Virus record (IMG/VR): IMGVR_UViG_3300036790_000378
Location: 1-36,264 of that record
Reading direction: 5' to 3' (one strand)
Source: a virus
Length of the DNA stretch: 36,264 bases
Positions 2,158 through 36,264 of this stretch are shown one piece after another. The notes beneath the pieces are model-generated. The model was given only the letters and a program-made list of their open reading frames with translations. It was not told where the DNA came from and searched no databases. Within the stretch, counting starts at the first letter, position 1; each line of letters opens with the position of its first letter. The position numbers were made by a program, and so were the translations under genes.

Positions 2158-2630
2158 AGTCGCCGACCTTCAACGATAAGAAGTGGCGCGTCCTCGCCGC
2201 GTCGATCGTCGACAGCGCCCGCAAGGTCGCCAAGGTCGGCGTGTTCTCGGGTACCGAGGCGGACGGGACGTCGCTCGCCGACGTGCTCGCATTCCAAGAG
2301 TTCGGCACAGCCACGATCCCGGAGCGCCGGCCGCTGCGACGAACGTTCGAAGAGAAGCGCGCCGAGCTCGTCAAGGTCTGTGAGGGCGCCGCGAAGCAGG
2401 TCGTGCTGCACGGCATGTCGGTCGCGCGCGCCGTCGGCCTGATCGGCGCGTGGGGCGCCGGAGCGGTCAAGGCGACGATCACGCAGGGCGACCTGCCGCC
2501 GCCGCTCGCGCCCGCGACGATAGCCGCCAAGGGCAGCTCAAAGCCGTTGGTCGATACCGGCAGGTTGCTCGGCGCGATCACGTGGTCCGTGGTCGACGAG
2601 GCGGACGCGAAGGGCGGCGTCGGGGAATAG
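2154..2630 (+). CDS. HK97 gp10-like / virion morphogenesis tail-completion protein (158 aa)
   Basis: Begins at a GTG overlapping the previous stop (GTGA). The segment VLAFQEFGTATIPERRPLRR is the hallmark of gp10-like and Mu-type virion morphogenesis proteins (an F-x-E-F-G-T stretch followed by I-P-x-R-x-L). The C-terminus with PLVDTGRLLGAITWSV matches the family's L-V-D-T-G-x-L motif. These proteins complete the tail or neck where it meets the head. Length is typical. Confidence 0.8.
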   Translation: MKSPTFNDKKWRVLAASIVDSARKVAKVGVFSGTEADGTSLADVLAFQEFGTATIPERRPLRRTFEEKRAELVKVCEGAAKQVVLHGMSVARAVGLIGAWGAGAVKATITQGDLPPPLAPATIAAKGSSKPLVDTGRLLGAITWSVVDEADAKGGVGE

Positions 2631-2632
2631 CC

Positions 2633-2989
2633 ATGTCGCTGCTCGACTCACTCGCCGCCTTCAAGACCGGCTGTTACGTCGTCACGCGCACGACCTACGC
2701 GCCGGCCACCGGCGGCGTCTACGCGGCGCCTGACGTCTCGACGATCGAGATCGACGCCGTCGTGGTTCCGTACGGCGGCGAGCTCGAGGCGCTGCCCGAG
2801 GGCGTGAACGCAAGCATGACGCGCGTCATCGGCACCTCGATCGAGCTGCTCGACGCGGCCAATGGTCGCACCCCGGATTCGATCGCGATCGGCGCCGACA
2901 ACTTCCTCGTGTTCCGCGTCGACGGCCCGGTCATGATGCCGGACAGCGTCCACTACCGCGCGTTCGCCGCGCGTCGGCGGCTGCCGTGA
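2633..2989 (+). CDS. Unknown head-tail/neck-region protein (118 aa)
   Basis: ATG 2633 follows the previous stop by 2 bases. The protein is predicted to be beta-rich, with a hydrophobic run IAIGADNFLVFRVDGPVMM; no family is recognised with certainty. Its place between a gp10-like completion protein and a tail-terminator-like protein suggests a neck or stopper role. The stop overlaps the GTG of the next gene. Confidence 0.7.
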   Translation: MSLLDSLAAFKTGCYVVTRTTYAPATGGVYAAPDVSTIEIDAVVVPYGGELEALPEGVNASMTRVIGTSIELLDAANGRTPDSIAIGADNFLVFRVDGPVMMPDSVHYRAFAARRRLP

Positions 2990-21102: not shown

Positions 21103-21314
21103 TCGACTTCGCGACGCTGCAGCGCTACGACCTCGAGCTCATCGTCGCGTTCGACCGGTTCGAGCGCATGTGGCACGGCTCGGTCAGCGGTACGAACCTC
21201 AACGGCGAGCCGCAGACGATGATCGTTGTCGACCAAGATCCCGTGGTCGCCGCGAGCACGGCGATCGTGAAGTTCGTCGCGGACTGCAGGCCGAAGGCCG
21301 ATGGCTCGGCTTGA
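21099..21314 (+). CDS. Unknown small protein (71 aa)
   Basis: ATG 21099 overlaps the previous stop. The sequence reads IDFATLQRYDLELIVAFDRF with an alpha/beta pattern and no known motif. It is the last gene of the plus-strand chain and converges on the integrase gene, whose stop is 38 bases away. Confidence 0.58.
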   Translation: MIDFATLQRYDLELIVAFDRFERMWHGSVSGTNLNGEPQTMIVVDQDPVVAASTAIVKFVADCRPKADGSA

Positions 21315-23889: not shown

Positions 23890-24416
23890 AGATCAAGCCT
23901 CGGCTGTTCGCGTTCGAAGATCGTGATCGCGCGCATCGGCATATTGAAGCCCGTCGACATCCCGAACGCGCGCACGAACCGCGTGCCCTCGACGGGGTTC
24001 GGCGTGATGTAGTGGACGATCGCGATCCGCCCCCCCCTACGAACGACGCGCGCGGCCTCGCGAAGTAGCGCCGACGGTCGCGCGTACTCGACGCCGTAGA
24101 GCGACTTCGCGTAGTGCTCGCTGTACGGCGGATCGATCATCACCGCTGCGACGCTTTCGTCGGCGAGCGGCAACGCGCGGCCGTCGGCGAGGATGTCGGG
24201 CTTCGCCTCGGGCCGGATGTCGACGCGGATGCCTTCGCCCGGCGGCAGGCCGCCGCTGCACACGTGCAGGATCTCGTGGCGCTCGCAACGCAGCCACGGC
24301 AGCATCTTGTGGATCAGCGCGCGCGGGTACATGCCGTAGACCTGCTGCGGCATGTACCCGGCGTCGGGCGGCGCGAGGTCCTCGTACAGAACGAGCCATG
24401 CTTGTCCGGTTGTCAC
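23886..24416 (-). CDS. SAM-dependent DNA methyltransferase with DPPY motif (176 aa)
   Basis: The segment VAAVMIDPPYSEHYAKSLYG contains D-P-P-Y (residues 95-98), motif IV of N6-adenine or N4-cytosine methyltransferases. LHVCSGGLPPGEGIRVDI is the probable SAM-binding motif I, and RRGGRIAIVHYITPNP lies later. It lacks a clear target-recognition domain at this size. It could protect phage DNA or regulate genes. GTG 24416 overlaps the transposase stop, showing that the transposase gene is part of this operon. Confidence 0.72.
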   Translation of the reverse strand: MTTGQAWLVLYEDLAPPDAGYMPQQVYGMYPRALIHKMLPWLRCERHEILHVCSGGLPPGEGIRVDIRPEAKPDILADGRALPLADESVAAVMIDPPYSEHYAKSLYGVEYARPSALLREAARVVRRGGRIAIVHYITPNPVEGTRFVRAFGMSTGFNMPMRAITIFEREQPRLDL

Positions 24417-25444
24417 CCAACGCTCCCATCGGTAGTGCCGGGATGAATCCAATCTCCATCGTACAACTCGTCATATGTGGGAGCCTCTTTGCTGGCGCTC
24501 AAGCCGAGCAACGACCGGAACGCGTTGAACGGGTAGAAGCGCCGGTTGAATCGGAACACGAACTCGTTGAGGTACGCCTGCAAGTGGTCGGGTGAGACGC
24601 CGTGGTGCGTGCCATTGATCCACGCCTTCAGGTTCGAGAACACGAGGTGGATGATCGGCAGGTAGTCCTCGGCAACTCCGGGCTCGCCACGCTCGGGACA
24701 CGCGAGGTGCTGGTAACCGTGCCGCGCGAGGCCCGCGTAGCTCTGCGAGCCGTCAGTGACCACCATCTCGGTGAGCGTGTCGACGTTCGCTTGGATGAAC
24801 CCCTGGCAGATCTTCGCGGTCTTGTCTGGGATCACTTGGAGGCGCAGCCGACCTGCGTAGCGTCCGCCGCGACGCGGCTTCCGCTTGCTGTGCAGCTCGT
24901 GCTCGGACTCGATCCGCTCGACCTTGCGCTGCTTTACCTCGACGGCGCCGATCACACGGACCTGGTTCGTGACACCGCGTCCCTCGCCGCGCGTGCGCCC
25001 GCCGACGAACGTCTCGTCGATCTCGACGTGGCACTTGCCGCCAATCGGTCCGCTCGTCGTGCCCATCCCACTGCGAAGTTTGTGCAGGATCTGGAACGCG
25101 GTCTCGTATCGCGTGAGCCCGAGCTGGCGCTGGAGTTGGACGGCCGACATGCCGGGCGTTTGCGAGGAGATGAGGAATGCGGCCCAGAACCACGTAGAGA
25201 GCGGCGTGTGCGTGCGCTCCATGACGGTGCCTGCGGTGAGTCCGATGTCTTTCTTGCAACCCTTGCAGCGCAAAACGCCAGGCCGATTTCCGAAGCGGTA
25301 GGGCACGGCGGTCGAATTGCATCGCGGGCACTGGAAGCCGTCTCTCCAGCGGATCGATTCGAGGTAGCGAGCACACGCGGCGTCGTCAGGGAACATCTTC
25401 TGAAACCCTGGAAGCGACTCGGGGAATTTGTCGGCCATGCCCAT
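24413..25444 (-). CDS. IS1595/ISXO2-type transposase, embedded in the operon (343 aa)
   Basis: Complete IS1595-type protein. A zinc ribbon (C39, C42, C60, C63: CPRC and CKGC) is followed by a helical region (SAVQLQRQLGLTRYETAFQI) and catalytic acidic residues D143 (HVEIDETFVGGR) and D231 (VVTDGSQSY), with NLKAWINGTHHGVS and FNRR at the C-terminal end. No inverted repeats or flanking noncoding DNA are seen: the upstream gene stops 3 bases before ATG 25444, and the stop overlaps the next gene by 4 bases. It is either an IS whose ends have been lost or a captured gene. Confidence 0.9.
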   Translation of the reverse strand: MGMADKFPESLPGFQKMFPDDAACARYLESIRWRDGFQCPRCNSTAVPYRFGNRPGVLRCKGCKKDIGLTAGTVMERTHTPLSTWFWAAFLISSQTPGMSAVQLQRQLGLTRYETAFQILHKLRSGMGTTSGPIGGKCHVEIDETFVGGRTRGEGRGVTNQVRVIGAVEVKQRKVERIESEHELHSKRKPRRGGRYAGRLRLQVIPDKTAKICQGFIQANVDTLTEMVVTDGSQSYAGLARHGYQHLACPERGEPGVAEDYLPIIHLVFSNLKAWINGTHHGVSPDHLQAYLNEFVFRFNRRFYPFNAFRSLLGLSASKEAPTYDELYDGDWIHPGTTDGSVG

Positions 25445-27240: not shown

Positions 27241-27644
27241 CGCGCAAGCGGGTGCCACAGCTCGCGCGGTGCGTTCACGAGCGCGTCGAGGAACAGCCGC
27301 ACGAACCGGGCACGGTGCGCGCCGAGCTCGTAGATGTCGACGATCGCCGAGACGTTGAGCTCGAGCAACCGCCGGGCGAGCAGCGCCGCGCTCTTCGTGT
27401 CGGCCGGGCAGTCGCCGCCCTTCTGACCGGCGAGCACGTAGTCGAACTTCTCGCGGAGCGTATGGAACTCGCCCTCGACGTCGATCACGATCTGCGGCAC
27501 GTGCGCGTAGCTCTGCTCGAGCAGGCGACGGAGCGCCCACGATTTGCCGGCGCCGCTGTTCGCTTGCACGAGCAGCCGCGACTCGATCAGGCGGTCGACG
27601 TTCAGTGGCGCGTCGGGGCCGAGGGATGCGTGTTGCTTCGTCAC
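26931..27644 (-). pseudogene. Truncated HerA-like ATPase (N-terminal ~135 residues) with out-of-frame tail
   Basis: The first ~130 residues match HerA/DUF87-type phage ATPases: NSGAGKSWALRRLLEQS (Walker A, residues 29-36), QIVIDVEGEFHTLREKF, DYVLAGQKGGDCPAD and FLDALVNAPRELWHP. After about 27250 the frame has no family resemblance (Ser/Pro/Arg-rich), because it now reads the methyltransferase fragment out of frame. Walker B and the C-terminal half are missing. A deletion or assembly join near 27240-27255 is the simplest explanation. GTG 27644 overlaps the DUF5131 stop. Confidence 0.65.
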
Positions 27645-28651
27645 GATTGAATCTCCGGGAACGCAGCGTGCTGCTTGCCGTCGAGGTAGGGCAGTTCGAT
27701 GACGCCGCGTGCCTTCGCGCGCGAACCGTCACCCGCGCAGACGATGTCGATCCATCGTTGCCCGCTCTCGGTGAGCGTCGTGACCGTGCTCGGATCGGCA
27801 TCATCGGGCGCCGGGATACACGCGGGCACCGCGCGCGCTTGCTTCAGGAAGAACGCGACGCCAGCGTCGGCGCACTGGTCGCGTAGCGAGCGCAGCCACT
27901 CGACGTTACAAGAGCGCGCGCCGGGGCCGCTCTCACAGCCGGCGATCGCCCAATGAATGCGAGGCCCCGACCACGTCGGGTTCGGGCCGAACACGTGGAC
28001 CGTCGGCATATCGATCGGTCCGAGTAGCGGCTCGCAGCTCAGGAACCGCACCGCGGCCGGCGTTGCGAGCAGCTCAGGGATGCGTGCGGCCGCCGTCTCC
28101 TGATTCTCGACGCTCACGCCGAGCCACACGTTCGGCAGCGGCCACGCCTTTCGCAGTCGTAGAAATCCGAGCATTCGACCCTGGTCGTCGTCGGTCGGGA
28201 TCGCGTGCTCGGCGTAGCCGTAGAGCGCCGACGGCGTCAGGTCATCGGCCCACTCGAACCACTCGCGCATGCGCCTCGCGCGCTTCGTCAGCACCTGAAA
28301 CGTATGCTGCGGCGCCGACGCCATGACGGCGAACACCGCCGCGATCTGCTCGTTCGTCAGGTTCTCGTGGAACAGGTCCGACATCGAGTTGACGAAAATT
28401 CGGCGCGGCTTCTTCCAGCGCAGCGGATCGGCAAGATGGTCGGCGATGAAGCGAACCTCTCCGGTCCACTTCGGATGGTGGCCCGTGCGCACGCCGATCT
28501 TCGCGAGACCCTCGTACGGCTGGCCGGGTCCGCTGAAGCGCGCGGCGACCGCCTCGGCGTAGCAGTGACGGCACCCATCGCTGACGCGCGAGCAGCCGCG
28601 GATCGGATTCCACGTCGCGTCCGTCCAGCTGATCGACGTCGCGTCACCCAC
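27641..28651 (-). CDS. DUF5131 / phage Gp37-Gp68 family protein (336 aa)
   Basis: The signature is strong: WNPIRGCSRVSDGCRHCYAE (C20, C27, C30; a radical-SAM-like C-x6-C-x2-C set), WKKPRRIFVNSMSDLFHENL, APQHTFQVLTKRARRM, PNVWLGVSVENQ and FLSCEPLLGPID. The family is widespread in phages; the reaction is unknown, though an Fe-S radical chemistry is often suspected. Its last residues are P-E-I-Q-S. It overlaps the upstream gene by 8 bases. Confidence 0.88.
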   Translation of the reverse strand: MGDATSISWTDATWNPIRGCSRVSDGCRHCYAEAVAARFSGPGQPYEGLAKIGVRTGHHPKWTGEVRFIADHLADPLRWKKPRRIFVNSMSDLFHENLTNEQIAAVFAVMASAPQHTFQVLTKRARRMREWFEWADDLTPSALYGYAEHAIPTDDDQGRMLGFLRLRKAWPLPNVWLGVSVENQETAAARIPELLATPAAVRFLSCEPLLGPIDMPTVHVFGPNPTWSGPRIHWAIAGCESGPGARSCNVEWLRSLRDQCADAGVAFFLKQARAVPACIPAPDDADPSTVTTLTESGQRWIDIVCAGDGSRAKARGVIELPYLDGKQHAAFPEIQS

Positions 28652-29487: not shown

Positions 29488-29884
29488 GTGACTCCACCTT
29501 CGCGACCGCGGCGCGCAGCGCCTTTTCGGCCGGCGCCGCCGCGCAGCTGTCGTGATCGCCGGCGCTGCAATTCGAATCGCGGGTGTGCTCGGCTTCGCAG
29601 AACGCGAGCGCGAGCACGTAGATCGGCCGCATCGCGTCGACCTCGGCGCGCAGCTTCGCGAGCTCGGCCTCGAGGTCGGTGGGCGCGACGAGCTGCAGAT
29701 CGACGAGCCGTTCCGCACCGACGATCTGCGGTCGCCAGCTGCGGATGTGCGCGACGACGGTCGAGGCCAGATCATCTACCTCGCCGGGCGCTAGCTTGGC
29801 GTGATCGTCGAGCGCGGCGAACGTCGCGCGCAGCGTCTTGAGCAGCGCGGCGCCGCGCGGCGACATGGAAGCCACGGCGACCAC
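29480..29884 (-). CDS. Unknown protein (134 aa)
   Basis: A helical protein with FAALDDHAKLAPGEVDDLAS, a coiled segment LEAELAKLRAEVDAM and CSAGDHDSC near the end. Start may be GTG 29884 or the internal ATG six residues later; the former touches the RecE-like gene's stop (TAG 29885). No known function. Confidence 0.55.
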   Translation of the reverse strand: MVAVASMSPRGAALLKTLRATFAALDDHAKLAPGEVDDLASTVVAHIRSWRPQIVGAERLVDLQLVAPTDLEAELAKLRAEVDAMRPIYVLALAFCEAEHTRDSNCSAGDHDSCAAAPAEKALRAAVAKVESHG

Positions 29885-30724
29885 CTAGAGCTCCATCTCT
29901 TCGCCGTCGACGATCAGCACCGTGTCGCCGTCGTCCGACAGATCGAACGGTTCGATCGTCTGCGTGTAGCCCGGCCATTCGTTGGCCGCCTCGCACACCG
30001 CGAGGCGTTCCCACCACAACCGCCAGCACTTCTCGCCCTCGGCGATCGTCCGCGGCACGACCTCGAGGACCGTCACGACGTACGGACGCTTCGACTCGAT
30101 CGCGACGACGTAATTATCCTTGGGCGCGCGGCCGGTCTCGGTCCGGATCGCCTCGCCGTAGAAGCTGAACTGCGCGTGGTAGCCCATGAACTGCGCGTCG
30201 CGGCTGAACTTGCGCGGCTCCGAGCAGCGCGTCGTCTTGAGGTCGACGAGCAGGTCGTTCGTGCGGCGCGAGTCCGGTCGCGACGTGCACTTCCGGCCGT
30301 TCAACTCCCACTCGATCGTCCGCTCGAGCTCGACGCCGGCGGCGAACAGCAGGTCGTGCGCCTGACGGTGCCGATGCACCGCGGTCGACATTCCTTCGGC
30401 CTGCGCCCACTCGTTCGCGTTGAGGATCTCTTTGTCGGCGTTGGCCGCCTTGAACGAGTCCCAGTCCTTGCCGCGGCGCTGCTTGCCGGTGAACTTCACG
30501 ACCGGCATGCCGAGCAGCATCGCGTGCACGCCGCGGCCGAGGCGCATCGCCAGCGAGTCGTCGGCGTCCTCCTGGACCGCGGCGAGGTAGTGCGCCGGCG
30601 ACTTCGCCATGTTCTTGAGCCGGCTGAACCGGACCGGCACGGTGCGCGGATCGATCGGCTCGCGGAGCAGCGAGACGAGCCGCTCGTCGGCGGGCACGTC
30701 GTCCATCTCGACCGCGGCGGACAT
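29885..30724 (-). CDS. RecE-like exonuclease, PD-(D/E)XK family (279 aa)
   Basis: The N-terminal segment RFSRLKNMAKSPAHYLAAVQ is typical of RecE-like nucleases. The core shows RLGRGVHAMLLG (H67), WELNGRKCTSRPDSRR (D151), LLVDLKTT (D161-x-K163) and GYHAQFSFYGEAIR. This arrangement (H, D, D-x-K and a Q-x3-Y helix) matches the exodeoxyribonuclease VIII PDDEXK-like domain that resects double-stranded DNA ends for recombination. Its ATG overlaps the stop of the SSB-like gene (TGATG), pairing the two. Confidence 0.82.
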   Translation of the reverse strand: MSAAVEMDDVPADERLVSLLREPIDPRTVPVRFSRLKNMAKSPAHYLAAVQEDADDSLAMRLGRGVHAMLLGMPVVKFTGKQRRGKDWDSFKAANADKEILNANEWAQAEGMSTAVHRHRQAHDLLFAAGVELERTIEWELNGRKCTSRPDSRRTNDLLVDLKTTRCSEPRKFSRDAQFMGYHAQFSFYGEAIRTETGRAPKDNYVVAIESKRPYVVTVLEVVPRTIAEGEKCWRLWWERLAVCEAANEWPGYTQTIEPFDLSDDGDTVLIVDGEEMEL

Positions 30725-31218
30725 CAGGCGTCACCCGCGGCTTCGGCGGCTTCGATCGCGCGCTTGTCCGCTTCGCTGAGGTCGGCCGGCTGCGCGGGCG
30801 TCGCCGCTTCGCGGATCGCTTCGGCGAGGTCGGGCTCCTTCGCGGCGGCCTTGCCGTTGCCGTTCTTCGACGAGCGCGGAGATGCCGCCTTGCCCTGCGG
30901 GACGTGCGGTCGGACGCGAATGCAGTCGACGGTCTCGCCGCCGAACTCGGTCGTCGTCGGGTAGAGCGTGATCCACTGGCCGGCCCAGCTGTCGGCGTCC
31001 GTGCCGTACAGCGACGCGATCGTCTTGCCATTGGTCTTATTGATAGCGAGCTTCTTTTCCTTGCCGACGAACTTGAGCATCGGCTTCTTGCTCTTGCGGC
31101 CCTTGTCGCCCTGGAGCTCGCCCGCGAAGCACTTCTCGATCTGCACCGTGACCTCGCGGCCGTCGAGGTCGAACGCGTACAGGTGCTCCTTGTCGTCGAA
31201 CATCTTCTTGTAGTGCAC
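30724..31218 (-). CDS. Putative OB-fold ssDNA-binding/recombination partner of RecE (164 aa)
   Basis: The core KPMLKFVGKEKKLAINKTNG and YGTDADSWAGQWITLYPTT followed by GGETVDCIRVRP is a conserved pattern found next to RecE-like genes in other phages. The C-terminal 50 residues are acidic, Ala-rich and flexible, like an SSB tail. It probably binds DNA or the nuclease during strand annealing; this is inferred. Start GTG 31218 has a good aggaggcagct ribosome site. Confidence 0.65.
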   Translation of the reverse strand: MHYKKMFDDKEHLYAFDLDGREVTVQIEKCFAGELQGDKGRKSKKPMLKFVGKEKKLAINKTNGKTIASLYGTDADSWAGQWITLYPTTTEFGGETVDCIRVRPHVPQGKAASPRSSKNGNGKAAAKEPDLAEAIREAATPAQPADLSEADKRAIEAAEAAGDA

Positions 31219-31281
31219 AGCTGCCTCCTGATTTGGTGGTCGGTTGCGAGCGGCTTACTTGGCTGCGCTCGGGTGAATCGG

Positions 31282-32088: not shown

Positions 32089-32165
32089 CAGCGCGCCTCC
32101 TCGCGGTGCAGCGTGCAGTCGCGGAGCGAGCCGTACTGCATCAGGTAGAGGGCGGGCGCCTTCAC
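32088..32165 (-). CDS. Micro-ORF in the early operon (25 aa)
   Basis: GTG 32165 overlaps the stop of the first early gene and the stop overlaps ATG 32088. The peptide starts VKAPALYLMQYGSLR. The double overlap fits the coupled chain of this operon and makes translation plausible. Confidence 0.45.
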   Translation of the reverse strand: MKAPALYLMQYGSLRDCTLHREEAR

Positions 32166-32662
32166 GCCGCCTCGCTCTCGTCGACGCAGTAGCCGGCGAC
32201 CACCTGCGTGATCTGCGCCGCGATGTCGGCGGCGCGCCGCGCGTCCATCGAGACGCCGCATTTGAAGGAGACTTCGTGCGCCACGACCGCGGCGACGTCG
32301 GACTGCATCGCGCGGAGGTCGCGGGTGCCGGCGAGGGCGTCGCGCTGCGCCTCGGCACGAACCGCCTGATCGAGGTACATGTCGCGCTCGCGCTCGAGCC
32401 GCGCGATGCGACGCTGCGCGATCGCCAGCTCCTGCTCGACCGACCCACGGCCGCCGCCGGCGACCTCGCCGCACTCGGGGCGCGGCGTGTCGAGGAGCAC
32501 GCGGAGCACGCGTTGGCCGGGGAGGTCGAGCATCGCCTGGTCGGCGGCCGCGACCGCGAGGTCGGCGAAGTCGCGCTCGGTGAAGTCGACGCACGCGTCG
32601 AGCGCGCGATCGACCTTCGGGTTGGAGTAGGAGCCGAACGCCGAGCCGGTGTTGCTTGCCAT
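32162..32662 (-). CDS. First gene of the leftward early operon, coiled-coil protein (166 aa)
   Basis: Start is ATG 32662, which lies 7 bases after the -10 of promoter P2; upstream in-frame codons lie inside the promoter. The N-terminal part has DACVDFTERDFADLAV, then a coiled coil (EQELAIAQRRIARLERERDM) and a helical C-terminus (MDARRAADIAAQITQVV). No family is known. Expression should be repressed in the lysogen by the operator sites here. Confidence 0.68.
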   Translation of the reverse strand: MASNTGSAFGSYSNPKVDRALDACVDFTERDFADLAVAAADQAMLDLPGQRVLRVLLDTPRPECGEVAGGGRGSVEQELAIAQRRIARLERERDMYLDQAVRAEAQRDALAGTRDLRAMQSDVAAVVAHEVSFKCGVSMDARRAADIAAQITQVVAGYCVDESEAA

Positions 32663-32664
32663 GT

Positions 32665-32681
32665 GTATAGTCATACTAACC
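32665..32681. promoter_or_regulatory. Repressor operator O2 (GTATAG-N5-CTAACC)
   Basis: A 6-5-6 site whose right half is identical to O1 and left half keeps 4 of 6 bases of GGTTAG. It covers the -10 hexamer of P2 (32670-32675), so bound repressor would block the early leftward operon. Confidence 0.6.
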
Positions 32682-32698
32682 AACAACGACCGTGTCAA
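32670..32698 (-). promoter_or_regulatory. Promoter P2, leftward early promoter
   Basis: A perfect -35 TTGACA at 32693-32698, a 17-base spacer, and -10 TATGAC at 32670-32675 (minus strand). ATG 32662 follows after 7 bases, so the message should be leaderless. Operators O1 (upstream) and O2 (over the -10) flank it, the arrangement of a repressed early promoter. Confidence 0.7.
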
Positions 32699-32704
32699 TG
32701 GTCT

Positions 32705-32721
32705 GGTTAGAAAAACTAACC
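32705..32721. promoter_or_regulatory. Repressor operator O1, perfect palindrome (GGTTAG-N5-CTAACC)
   Basis: GGTTAG-AAAAA-CTAACC is a perfect inverted repeat 40 bases (centre to centre) from O2, just upstream of the P2 -35. Half-sites of the same sequence occur twice more in the Cro-repressor gap, and nowhere else that I could see in the window. Confidence 0.72.
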
Positions 32722-32722
32722 G

Positions 32723-32899
32723 CTAGCGTCGGCGTCGACGAGAAACCCGGAACGTCGCCAGGGCTTCGAGCAGTTCGACAAGTGCGCGAAGCGATCTCTC
32801 ATCGCCATCGAGCGCCACTAAACACCGCACCGCAGTGCGCTCTTTGCTTCCGGTTCCGGCCCGTCGCGGTGCCGTCGTCGACTTCTTCTTCACTGCCAT
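32723..32899 (-). CDS. Small protein downstream of the repressor (58 aa)
   Basis: ATG 32899 has an aggagag ribosome site directly upstream. The protein has a basic start (MAVKKKSTTAPRRAGTGS), then VALDGDERSLRALVELLEAL and an Arg-rich end. The stop (TAG) is 1 base from operator O1. It is on the same strand as the repressor, 149 bases downstream, so the two may share a transcript. It might be a small regulator; nothing identifies it. Bases 32900-33048 hold no gene that I can see. Confidence 0.5.
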   Translation of the reverse strand: MAVKKKSTTAPRRAGTGSKERTAVRCLVALDGDERSLRALVELLEALATFRVSRRRRR

Positions 32900-33048
32900 C
32901 TCTCCTGCGCGAGCATCGCGGCACGTGGCCCTAGGTCGCGCTGTTTGAGTTGGAGGCAGCCTACGCCACTGGTCTGATGCGCAGTGCGCAGATCCGCGTA
33001 GTCAGTTGTCCGCGATCCATCGGACGAGCGGTCCGGAGTGGCGCGAAC

Positions 33049-33465
33049 CTACTCCTCTTTCGCGGCTAGTTTGTTTTTTTCAAGGAACGTCACCACGTTC
33101 TCTTGAGCGCCGAGATCAGCCGGAAGTGCTTGAGATAGTCGTCGGAGCAGATCGATCTCGCGCTGTCTAGCCTTCTCGTCGACGACGCCGATCTCACGAG
33201 CCTGCGCCGGTCCATCGTAGACGCGCAACAGCGCCAGATACATCGACCGCGCGAGCGTCAGTTGAATGCCGCGCTCGATGTTGGTCACCGTTCCGTGTGA
33301 GAAGACATTCCCGGCTGCTGCGGCCACTTCTCTCGTCGACATGTCGAGCTCTTTGCGGCGCTTCTTGAGTCTCTTGCGTTCCTTGTCGGTGATCTTCACC
33401 TGGGGATCGCTCGTGTCCGGCGGCGTACGCGTCTCGCGGGCCATGATTTGACGCGATGCGACCAT
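33049..33465 (-). CDS. XRE-type repressor (138 aa), candidate CI-like lysogeny regulator
   Basis: The HTH sits at about residues 40-66 (ELDMSTREVAAAAGN with FSHGTVTNIERG). The C-terminal half is helical (AREIGVVDEKARQREIDLLR) and has no S24 autocleavage domain, so induction must differ from lambda CI. It lies opposite a smaller XRE gene with four 6-5-6 operators between or near them, the classic switch layout. Operator O3 starts 8 bases upstream of its ATG, suggesting autoregulation. The exact start may be ATG 33465 or 33444. Confidence 0.7.
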   Translation of the reverse strand: MVASRQIMARETRTPPDTSDPQVKITDKERKRLKKRRKELDMSTREVAAAAGNVFSHGTVTNIERGIQLTLARSMYLALLRVYDGPAQAREIGVVDEKARQREIDLLRRLSQALPADLGAQENVVTFLEKNKLAAKEE

Positions 33466-33472
33466 GACGATC

Positions 33473-33489
33473 GGTTAGTGGTACTTGAC
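33473..33489. promoter_or_regulatory. Repressor operator O3 (GGTTAG-N5-CTTGAC)
   Basis: Left half identical to O1, spacer 5, right half degenerate. The right half overlaps the -35 TTGACA of P3, and the left half is close to the repressor start codon, so it could control both directions. Confidence 0.6.
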
Positions 33490-33513
33490 AGGAGTTGGTT
33501 AGACGAACTAGAC
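33485..33513 (+). promoter_or_regulatory. Promoter P3, rightward promoter of the Cro-like gene
   Basis: Perfect -35 TTGACA (33485-33490). The -10 is weak: with a 17-base spacer it is CTAGAC (33508-33513), and shifted by one it is TAGACA. With the 17-base reading, the ATG again comes 7 bases after the -10. An aaggag tract is only 1 base from the ATG, too close for normal use. O3 covers the -35 and O4 the -10. Confidence 0.55.
33497..33513. promoter_or_regulatory. Repressor operator O4 (GGTTAG-N5-CTAGAC)
   Basis: Left half identical to O1, spacer 5, right half differing from CTAACC at two bases. It coincides with the -10 position of P3, 24 bases (centre to centre) from O3. Confidence 0.6.
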
Positions 33514-33520
33514 AAGGAGC

Positions 33521-33745
33521 ATGGAGCTTGCTGAGCGAATCACCGCCTGGCGTGAGTTCAGGGGGATGTCTCGCCCTGAGCTAGCTGCCGCCGTCGGCGT
33601 GACTCGCGCTGCGGCGTATCACTGGGAAGCGACCGACGACACCGGCGTGAAGCCACGGCAAGAGACGCTCGAGAAAATCGTCGAAGCGTTCGGTATCACC
33701 ATGGCGCGCTTCTGGGGCGCACTTCCGAGCAAGAAAGCCTCGTGA
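33521..33745 (+). CDS. Cro-like XRE-family HTH protein (74 aa)
   Basis: Compact HTH protein: ERITAWREFRGMSRPELAAA and VGVTRAAAYHWEATDD give a textbook HTH_3 fold, followed by RQETLEKIVEAFGITMARFW. Small size and position opposite the larger repressor suggest a Cro-type regulator. Start ATG 33521 is 7 bases after the P3 -10. Its stop lies 2 bases from the convergent membrane-protein gene. Confidence 0.75.
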   Translation: MELAERITAWREFRGMSRPELAAAVGVTRAAAYHWEATDDTGVKPRQETLEKIVEAFGITMARFWGALPSKKAS

Positions 33746-33747
33746 CA

Positions 33748-34197
33748 TCACTTGGCGTTCTTGGCGTTCTTGATGGCCCACCGCCAGTCGTGGAACAGCT
33801 CGCACTCGCCGAGCTGGTCGTACTCGGCGTCGCGCACAAGCCCGCGCCGGAAGTCGACGCACTCGCCGTACATGCGGAAGCACCATCGCGTTCGCTTGTC
33901 GGCGGTGATCGCGCGGCCTCGCACGCACGCGTAGGCGTCGACCTCGTCGCACGCGAGCCCGCGATGCTCGCACTCCGCGCCGCCGTCGACCCAACACACG
34001 TCGCCGATGCCGGACACGTTCTCGCGCGCGCAGAACGCCGGGTCGGATCGGTCGCGTTCGTCCTGGAGCGCGGCGTCGTGTCGCTGGATCAGGAAGAACG
34101 CGCCGACGCCCATGCCGGCAAGCGCGACCACGATGCCGATACCGGTCAGAAACAACCGCATCCGATAAGTCTCTTTTTTTTGCTCATTTCGGTCCAT
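33748..34197 (-). CDS. Cys-rich membrane-anchored protein, possible moron (149 aa)
   Basis: A basic start is followed by one TM segment (LFLTGIGIVVALAGMGVGAF) and then an extracytoplasmic domain with about nine Cys (CARENVSGIGDVCWVDGG, CEHRGLACDEVDAYAC, CFRMYGECVDF, CELFHDW). Such spacing suggests disulphides. It lies on the opposite strand from its rightward neighbours, close to the switch, as expected for a lysogenic-conversion gene. Small Cys-rich secreted proteins are common in Myxococcota. Function unknown. Confidence 0.65.
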   Translation of the reverse strand: MDRNEQKKETYRMRLFLTGIGIVVALAGMGVGAFFLIQRHDAALQDERDRSDPAFCARENVSGIGDVCWVDGGAECEHRGLACDEVDAYACVRGRAITADKRTRWCFRMYGECVDFRRGLVRDAEYDQLGECELFHDWRWAIKNAKNAK

Positions 34198-34207
34198 GCG
34201 AGTCGGT

Positions 34208-34222
34208 GCGAATTCAATTCGC
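34208..34222. promoter_or_regulatory. 15-bp perfect palindrome between divergent genes
   Basis: GCGAATT-C-AATTCGC is a perfect inverted repeat about 11 bases upstream of the membrane-protein start and 26 bases upstream of the HTH-gene GTG. A dimeric regulator could bind here and control both. It is unrelated to the GGTTAG sites. Confidence 0.45.
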
Positions 34223-34247
34223 TTGCGTTCGCTCCGGAGGTCTGTCC

Positions 34248-34625
34248 GTGCAATTGACGACGGACAACCTCACTGACGAGGGACGCGCGTGGGTCGCGCT
34301 CCACGACGCGGTGCTCGAAGCGGTTCGACTGATCACGCCGAAGGAACTCTGCTTCCGGCTCGGCATCACCGCGCAGTACCTGACCGAGGCGCTGCACAAC
34401 CTCAACCGCAAGGGCTTCCGACTCGAGTGGTTGCCGACCGTGATCTTGATGGCGCCGATCGACGCGGTCGCGCCGATCGTTCGCGCGCTCGCCGAGCTCC
34501 GCGGCTTCACCGTCGAGCGCAAGAAGCAGCTGACCGCCGCCGAGGAGCTCGTCGCCACGCGTGACGTGCTCAAGCGCGTCGCGCCGGGCGTGCTGTCGCT
34601 CGTCGACCAGGAGCTCGGCAAGTGA
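34248..34625 (+). CDS. HTH regulatory protein, CII-like position (125 aa)
   Basis: GTG 34248 is chosen because a perfect ggagg lies 7 bases upstream; the frame is open to 34206. The segment ITPKELCFRLGITAQYLTEA and LHNLNRKGFRLEWLP is an HTH-type region like phage-regulatory proteins that use a Pro-Lys-Glu helix start. It is the first gene of the second rightward operon, where lambda has CII/early functions, but the assignment to CII is positional. Confidence 0.6.
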   Translation: MQLTTDNLTDEGRAWVALHDAVLEAVRLITPKELCFRLGITAQYLTEALHNLNRKGFRLEWLPTVILMAPIDAVAPIVRALAELRGFTVERKKQLTAAEELVATRDVLKRVAPGVLSLVDQELGK

Positions 34626-35456: not shown

Positions 35457-36264
35457 ACGCGCTCGACGTCCACAGGCAGATCGCCGCGCTCGAGATCGAG
35501 GCACGCGGCGACAAGCACGCCCGGCTCGTCTTGTCGGATCTCTACGAGGACTTGGGCAAGCCGAGCGTTGCCGAGTCGTGGCGAAAGGTCGTCGACGAGA
35601 CGCAGCCGATCCGCGCCATCGATTCGTTCGGCGTCCGCGACGATGTCGCTCGTCTAATGCTGGACGAGTTGCCTGAGAAGTCGTTCCGAACGCGGAAGCG
35701 CGTCGACAAAATGACCGACGCCGAGGCCGCCCAGATGGCGTCGTGGGCGAAGAAGTGGATCGAGATCGGGTTGTGCACGAAGCCGGCGGATCGGCCGTTG
35801 TTCGAGGCGGCCGTCCGCGCGTGCTATCGCCACTCTGGGTTGCTCGAGCCCAAGGTCGTCGTGTGGGCACCATGCCCGCTCGTCGTCGCGTACGCCGGGC
35901 CCATCGCAGCGTGGTGGTGCGACCGGATCGTCGACGCCTCGGTCCTCGCCTCGGTCCGCGCCTCGGTCGACGCCTCGGTCCGCGCCTCGGTCGACGCCTC
36001 GGTCCGCGCCTCGGTCGACGCCTCGGTCCGCGCCTCGGTCGACGCCTCGGTCGGCGACTCGGTCGACGCCTCGGTCCGCGCCTCGGTCCGCGCCTCGGTC
36101 CGCGCCTCGGTCGACGCCTCGGTCGGCGACTCGGTCCTCGCCTCGGTCGACGCCTCGGTCGGCGACTCGGTCGACGCCTCGGTCCGCGCCTCGGTCCGCG
36201 CCTCGGTCCGCGCCTCGGTCGACGCCTCGGTCGGCGACTCGGTCCTCGCCTCGGTCGACGCCTC
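35453..36264 (+). CDS. DUF6745-like repeat protein, 3' truncated (270 residues visible)
   Basis: ATG 35453 overlaps the previous stop. Residues about 5-55 (IAALEIEARGDKHARLVLSD, LYEDLGKPSVAESWRKV) resemble the TIGR02996 repeat-companion domain. Residues about 110-160 (GLCTKPADRPLFEAAVRACY, LEPKVVVWAPCPLVVAYAGP) resemble the DUF6745-type domain. From residue 160 the protein is only V-x-A-S or V-G-D-S units through the window edge, with x being D, R, L. The frame has no stop, so the end is unknown. Repeat proteins of this kind occur in phages and Myxococcota; function is unknown. Confidence 0.75.
   Translation, partial: MNALDVHRQIAALEIEARGDKHARLVLSDLYEDLGKPSVAESWRKVVDETQPIRAIDSFGVRDDVARLMLDELPEKSFRTRKRVDKMTDAEAAQMASWAKKWIEIGLCTKPADRPLFEAAVRACYRHSGLLEPKVVVWAPCPLVVAYAGPIAAWWCDRIVDASVLASVRASVDASVRASVDASVRASVDASVRASVDASVGDSVDASVRASVRASVRASVDASVGDSVLASVDASVGDSVDASVRASVRASVRASVDASVGDSVLASVDA
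35930..36264 (+). repeat. 12-bp coding tandem repeats (about 28 units)
   Basis: Units of gtc-NNN-gcc-tcg repeat from 35930 to the window end, encoding V-x-A-S, with some V-G-D-S. A higher-order 9-unit (108-bp) block repeats: 36031-36156 is identical to 36139-36264. All units stay in frame. The window ends inside the array, which probably stopped the assembly. Confidence 0.95.

Follow-up and report, generated by a model that had tools for sequence, protein, structure and literature searches.

The window analysed here is the whole of a 36,264-bp IMG/VR virus record with a GC content of 67%, which encodes a major head protein, a tail sheath, a tape measure protein, a baseplate and an integrase; on the evidence of the integrase and the tail genes, it is a temperate myophage. 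The phage collection has no close record to it, two scans of genome_contigs returned 0 relatives, and scans of viral_contigs with single proteins (the repressor, the Cro-position protein and the first gene behind pL) also returned 0 relatives. Four 17-bp dyads, best written GGTTAGW-N3-ACTAACC, flank the gene for a putative XRE-family repressor as two pairs, each at one of two predicted early promoters: OL (32665 and 32705) and OR (33473 and 33497). The features of this region, in window coordinates, are the following.

29885..31218, minus strand: leftward early genes, including the exonuclease VIII-like gene and its neighbour, common to the contig L005
29885-30724, minus strand: exonuclease VIII-like gene (phrog_412, 3e-42)
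30724-31218, minus strand: neighbour of the exonuclease VIII-like gene, within the DNA common to L005
32162..32662, minus strand: first gene of the leftward early operon, 166 aa, ATG 7 bp past the -10
32665..32681, no strand: OL site a, GTATAGTCATACTAACC, over the pL -10; 2 mismatches; rank 2 with the L011 matrix
32670..32698, minus strand: predicted promoter pL, TTGACA (32698-32693), 17 nt, TATGAC (32675-32670), 7 nt, ATG at 32662
32705..32721, no strand: OL site b, GGTTAGAAAAACTAACC, perfect dyad, 6 bp upstream of the pL -35; rank 1 with the L011 matrix
32723..32893, minus strand: small gene, 56 aa, GTG at 32893 with GGAGAG upstream; 57% identity to L011:1573-1752
33049..33465, minus strand: putative XRE-family repressor (CI position), 138 aa, HTH_31/HTH_3; 41% identity to L011:2654-3070
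33473..33489, no strand: OR site a, GGTTAGTGGTACTTGAC, overlapping the pR -35; 3 mismatches; counterpart at L011:3078
33485..33513, plus strand: predicted promoter pR, TTGACA (33485-33490), 17 nt, CTAGAC (33508-33513), 7 nt, ATG at 33521
33497..33513, no strand: OR site b, GGTTAGACGAACTAGAC, over the pR spacer and -10; 2 mismatches; counterpart at L011:3102
33521..33745, plus strand: Cro-position XRE protein, 74 aa, HTH_3 1.2e-7; 53% identity to L011:3127-3354

The original prediction described four 6-5-6 operators at these positions. All four are there, each with a 5-base spacer, the site at 32705 being perfect and those at 32665, 33473 and 33497 having 2, 3 and 2 mismatches; the spacer thus stood, but a description as 17-bp dyads fits the sites better, because A occupies position 11 in 8/8 sites of the window and its relative L011. 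From centre to centre, the two OL sites are 40 bp apart and the two OR sites 24 bp. Of all half-sites CTTGAC (in 33473) is the weakest; it doubles as part of the -35 hexamer, and the same is found at the same place in L011 (3078), where the counterpart of this 3-mismatch site has 4. Over the whole window, the number of sites at ≤3 mismatches is near expectation (5 seen versus 3.1 expected; reached by 20/100 shuffles, not significant), as would be seen if the dyads were a chance or compositional effect. Against this stands their clustering: the 115 bp of promoter DNA (two segments) hold 4 sites against a shuffle mean of 0.047, a count that 0/5000 shuffles reach, and a motif-free search also favours four such sites, less strongly (2/300 shuffles reach it). 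A matrix derived from L011 gives its four highest scores to the four sites of the window (24.3, 20.8, 18.0 and 18.0; next, 9.4), and a matrix built from the window ranks the L011 sites first too. This reciprocal test refutes a chance origin, and with the clustering and the recovery of a homologous switch by operator sequence alone, it leaves that explanation practically no probability. A further window site at 21182 (2 mismatches) was treated as chance; it lies inside an ORF and has a matrix score of 9.4.

The homologous switch came from a scan of viral_contigs (2.9 million viral contigs) for GGTTAG-N5-CTAACC and then for a second site, with no protein query. This gave two matches, L011 and L012, of which L012 was rejected as chance: it is AT-rich, its sites lie in a coding repeat and no switch genes were recognised around them. 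In L011, a 44.7-kb contig, both OL sites (1522 and 1562) are perfect, and the OR sites have 4 mismatches (3078) and 1 mismatch (3102); the centre spacings of OL (40 bp) and OR (24 bp) equal those of the window. OL site b is identical to L011:1562-1578, spacer included, and OL site a aligns with the perfect site L011:1522-1538. The L011 repressor has the same length as that of the window and 41% identity to it, and identity is 53% for Cro and 57% for the product of the small gene that separates OL from the repressor gene. At the DNA level, a 10.9-kb locus of L011 matches the window at OL and the small gene (70%), at OR (72%) and in one 36-bp stretch, and within the alignments the operator and leftward -35 positions are identical at 90% (OL) and 79% (OR) versus 56-58% outside. 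By these comparisons L011 is a true relative with a homologous switch, and the only relative known to have GGTTAG operators. The search of relatives for GGTTAG-N5-CTAACC, which had been proposed together with the sites, found a phage with a homologous repressor and Cro. Conserved genes without conserved sites would have counted against the prediction; L011 instead keeps all four sites at identical centre spacing, which speaks for it. L011 also has an additional XRE gene of 107 aa (2330-2653, plus strand), convergent to its repressor gene, which is absent from the switch of the window.

The small gene between OL and the repressor gene is listed as an ORF from ATG 32899, and its stop adjoins OL site b. 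Its differences between the window and L011 fall on the three codon positions as 21/15/31, and a 23-nt stretch is fully identical in L011. The product is basic and Arg-ended, the gene occupies the position of rex, and we regard the 56-aa protein as a candidate regulator.

Both predicted early promoters combine a consensus -35 box with a poor -10 box, for which reason a consensus promoter scan called no promoter at pL or pR; at pR, TAGACA with an 18-nt spacer is an alternative -10. The case for them as promoters rests on geometry kept in relatives, that of pL being the same in L011 and L005 and that of pR the same in L011. The overlaps of sites and promoters were foreseen correctly at the pL -10 (32665), the pR -35 (33473) and the pR -10 (33497). 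However, a single site (33473) both overlaps the pR -35 and lies 8 bp from the first repressor ATG, where two sites had originally been assigned, and the perfect site at 32705 covers no promoter element. Because the -10 element sits 6-8 bp before the start codon in the six early promoters (pL and pR of three phages), both early mRNAs are probably leaderless, with starts at or beside the start codon. The ATG of the Cro-position gene lies 7 bp past the pR -10, and we infer that the AAGGAG before it is too close for a usual ribosome-binding site. Leaderless early genes are a known feature, as the cI and cro mRNAs of phage PY54 are leaderless (PMC4488713); here they would be expected at pL as well.

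The assignment of two divergent XRE-family genes holds, as both proteins match HTH_3 or HTH_31 above the curated cut-off and so belong to the XRE (Cro/C1-type HTH) family. For the repressor, a start at the second in-frame ATG (33444) is possible; L011 has a methionine at the same place, and its ORF begins with GTG. An AF2 model of the repressor of moderate confidence (pLDDT 70, from two input sequences) has an HTH at 27-84 and two long C-terminal helices, and its Foldseek neighbours, SinR and P22 c2 among them, are weak, with E values from 0.05 upwards; all Foldseek matches of the two models have E > 0.001. PDB profile matches of the Cro-position protein include P22 c2 and a 434 variant. The T-x-TNIE of the repressor recognition helix is kept between the window and L011, phages with common operators, and the phage collection gave 0 matches to the repressor of the window or to its L011 homologue.

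Gene order is what points to the 138-aa protein as the lysogenic repressor. The small rightward protein could instead be the true repressor, with the sites mainly its own and the 138-aa protein an accessory or antirepressor. It has the stronger HTH match (HTH_3 1.2e-7 versus 2e-5), is better conserved in L011 (53% versus 41%) and is near RstR-type repressors. However, Cro proteins also carry an HTH; the leftward gene, flanked by OL and OR and in the direction of pL, has the place of lambda cI, and the small HTH protein is encoded by the first gene behind pR, the place of cro. We therefore consider this exchange of roles improbable, and keep the leftward protein as the putative repressor.

A second contig, L005, is 78% identical to the window in DNA over 29803-31271 (1.5 kb, in the early leftward operon), and an alignment scan of viral_contigs with the exonuclease found L005 again and nothing else. 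Its promoters are without GGTTAG sites. TGGGCA-N5-TGCCCA dyads occur at 2922, 2955, 3639 and 3682, two at each end of the gene in repressor position, and in the whole 44.7-kb record just two other places match this dyad with 2 mismatches. The pL of L005 reads TTGACA, 17 nt, CATGCT, 6 nt, ATG, and its two sites take the positions seen in the window, one over the -10 and the other upstream of the -35; its pR, as read, is TTGACT, 17 nt, TACCCA, 7 nt, GTG. For the proteins in its repressor and Cro positions, Pfam and NCBIfam gave no HTH match, and profile comparison showed no similarity with the switch proteins of the window; their roles are assigned by position only. With early genes in common, other sites and unrelated switch proteins, L005 looks as expected of a heteroimmune relative. 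At first sight, the membrane-anchored genes that follow cro resemble each other in the window and L005, but this likeness was not borne out (E 0.20).

L005 also bears on a further reading, in which the sites serve some other autoregulated XRE pair, a toxin-antitoxin module or a restriction-modification controller. Such modules often contain XRE pairs with palindromic operators, and the structural neighbours of the two models include HipB and C proteins. However, a second operator pair lies at a distant early phage operon with an exonuclease in both the window and L005, the paired layout recurs in all three phages, the window is temperate and no toxin or restriction gene was recognised beside the switch, all of which makes such a module very unlikely.

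We therefore favour, with a probability of about 0.87, a lambda-type lysis-lysogeny switch with paired operators and a repressor that lacks an autocleavage domain. In lambda, the immunity region has the order OL/pL, rex, cI, OR/pR, cro, and the operator sites are 17 bp long with a 24-bp centre spacing in OR. The window resembles it in gene order (OL, small gene, repressor, OR, cro), in operators at both ends of the repressor gene that cover pL and pR, in 17-bp sites, in the small gene in the rex position and in the 24-bp centre spacing of OR. The window has an operator cluster on either side of the repressor gene, each overlapping an early promoter, an arrangement kept in L011 and L005. In contrast to lambda, which has two sets of three operators ~2.3 kbp apart (PMC5880393), the window, L011 and L005 have two sites per operator, OL and OR of the window are ~0.8 kb apart, the repressor is without an S24 domain and the early genes are probably leaderless. 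The lambda-like switch that had been predicted is thus supported, although three things were absent from the prediction: the conserved small gene next to OL, the probable lack of leaders in the early mRNAs, and a relative that looks heteroimmune.

In the prophage, the XRE repressor (33049-33465) would bind as dimers to the pairs of 17-bp operators that border the immunity region on either side. At OR, the repressor would lie over the -35 and -10 of pR and silence cro and the rightward operon; at OL, it would lie over the -10 of pL and on the site just upstream of the -35 and silence the leftward operon with its exonuclease gene. The small XRE protein encoded rightward (33521-33745) would act as Cro at the same sites, and both early mRNAs would probably begin at the start codon. 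By its architecture the switch would work like that of lambda, and its general kind is already known.

The absence of S24, also part of the original prediction, extends from the repressor to the phage records: no match to S24 (PF00717) was found in the three records (window, L011 and L005), whereas control genomes gave matches, and the HTH is the sole domain found in the 138-aa repressor. Because both the three-operator set and the S24 domain are missing, the switch is not filed with the cleavable CI repressors. The same three records, which are possibly incomplete, gave no match to an ImmA-type protease (Peptidase_M78, PF06114), as would belong to an ImmR/ImmA-type system. With neither a cleavable repressor nor such a protease, induction most likely proceeds through a separate protein (an antirepressor, or Cro itself acting like Mor) or through host proteolysis. 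Gifsy phages, which have lambda-like immunity, a repressor that is not cleaved and heteroimmune variants, are induced by antirepressors without repressor cleavage (PMC3121763). Unlike in these phages, no Gifsy-type antirepressor was identified in the window, and four consensus patterns, which may not fit the host, found no LexA-like box there. In TP901-1 and phi13, the repressor is countered by direct binding of the antirepressor Mor, so that CI:Mor pairs allow induction without cleavage (PMC11149083), and such a pair may serve as a model for the two XRE proteins of the window. The cI/cro switch of PY54, with leaderless cI and cro mRNAs, is a parallel to the probably leaderless early genes here and is also similar in its simplified operator set, but one 16-bp site, OR3, is all that the Cro of PY54 binds.

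A conserved chassis could consist of two sites per operator, a near-consensus -35 that adjoins the sites or separates them, and predicted leaderless first genes, at both early promoters. Unrelated repressor/operator cassettes would be exchanged within it, and an antirepressor of a novel type, perhaps the product of the small gene next to OL, would silence the repressor; we put this forward as a speculative combination that is more doubtful than likely. The window and L005 form a natural pair with early genes in common and different immunity sites. The sites amount to a predicted operator code, open to testing, for a group of temperate phages with a repressor unmatched in the phage collection, and a homologous immunity module of uncultured phages can be found from the operator sequence alone. 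If the leaderless early mRNAs and the non-cleavable repressor are true, this would be a compact switch with its induction route open.

Several other features of the window may be mentioned. The first leftward early gene (32162-32662) belongs to no recognised family. The leftward early region also carries a transposase of the IS1595/ISXO2 type (24413-25444, minus strand; PF12762, 9.9e-29), which adjoins a methyltransferase gene. A DUF5131 (phage Gp37/Gp68) protein is encoded at 27641-28651 (minus strand), and its first 271 aa are 57% identical to one on a Gemmatirosa kalamazoonensis plasmid. The gene convergent to cro (33748-34197, minus strand) encodes a product with a hydrophobic N-terminus and many cysteines, and could be expressed in the lysogen. 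The rightward operon encodes a probable HTH protein (34206-34625, plus strand) with 40% identity over 55 aa to L011:3782-4165, for which a CII-like or replication role is possible. At 35930-36264, a 12-bp tandem repeat in 28 copies, corresponding to a four-residue protein repeat, runs up to the contig end; because of this repeat, and because repeat genes lie near the ends of L005 (a pentapeptide-repeat gene) and L011 (a repeat ORF), the record of the window probably breaks inside a repeat gene.
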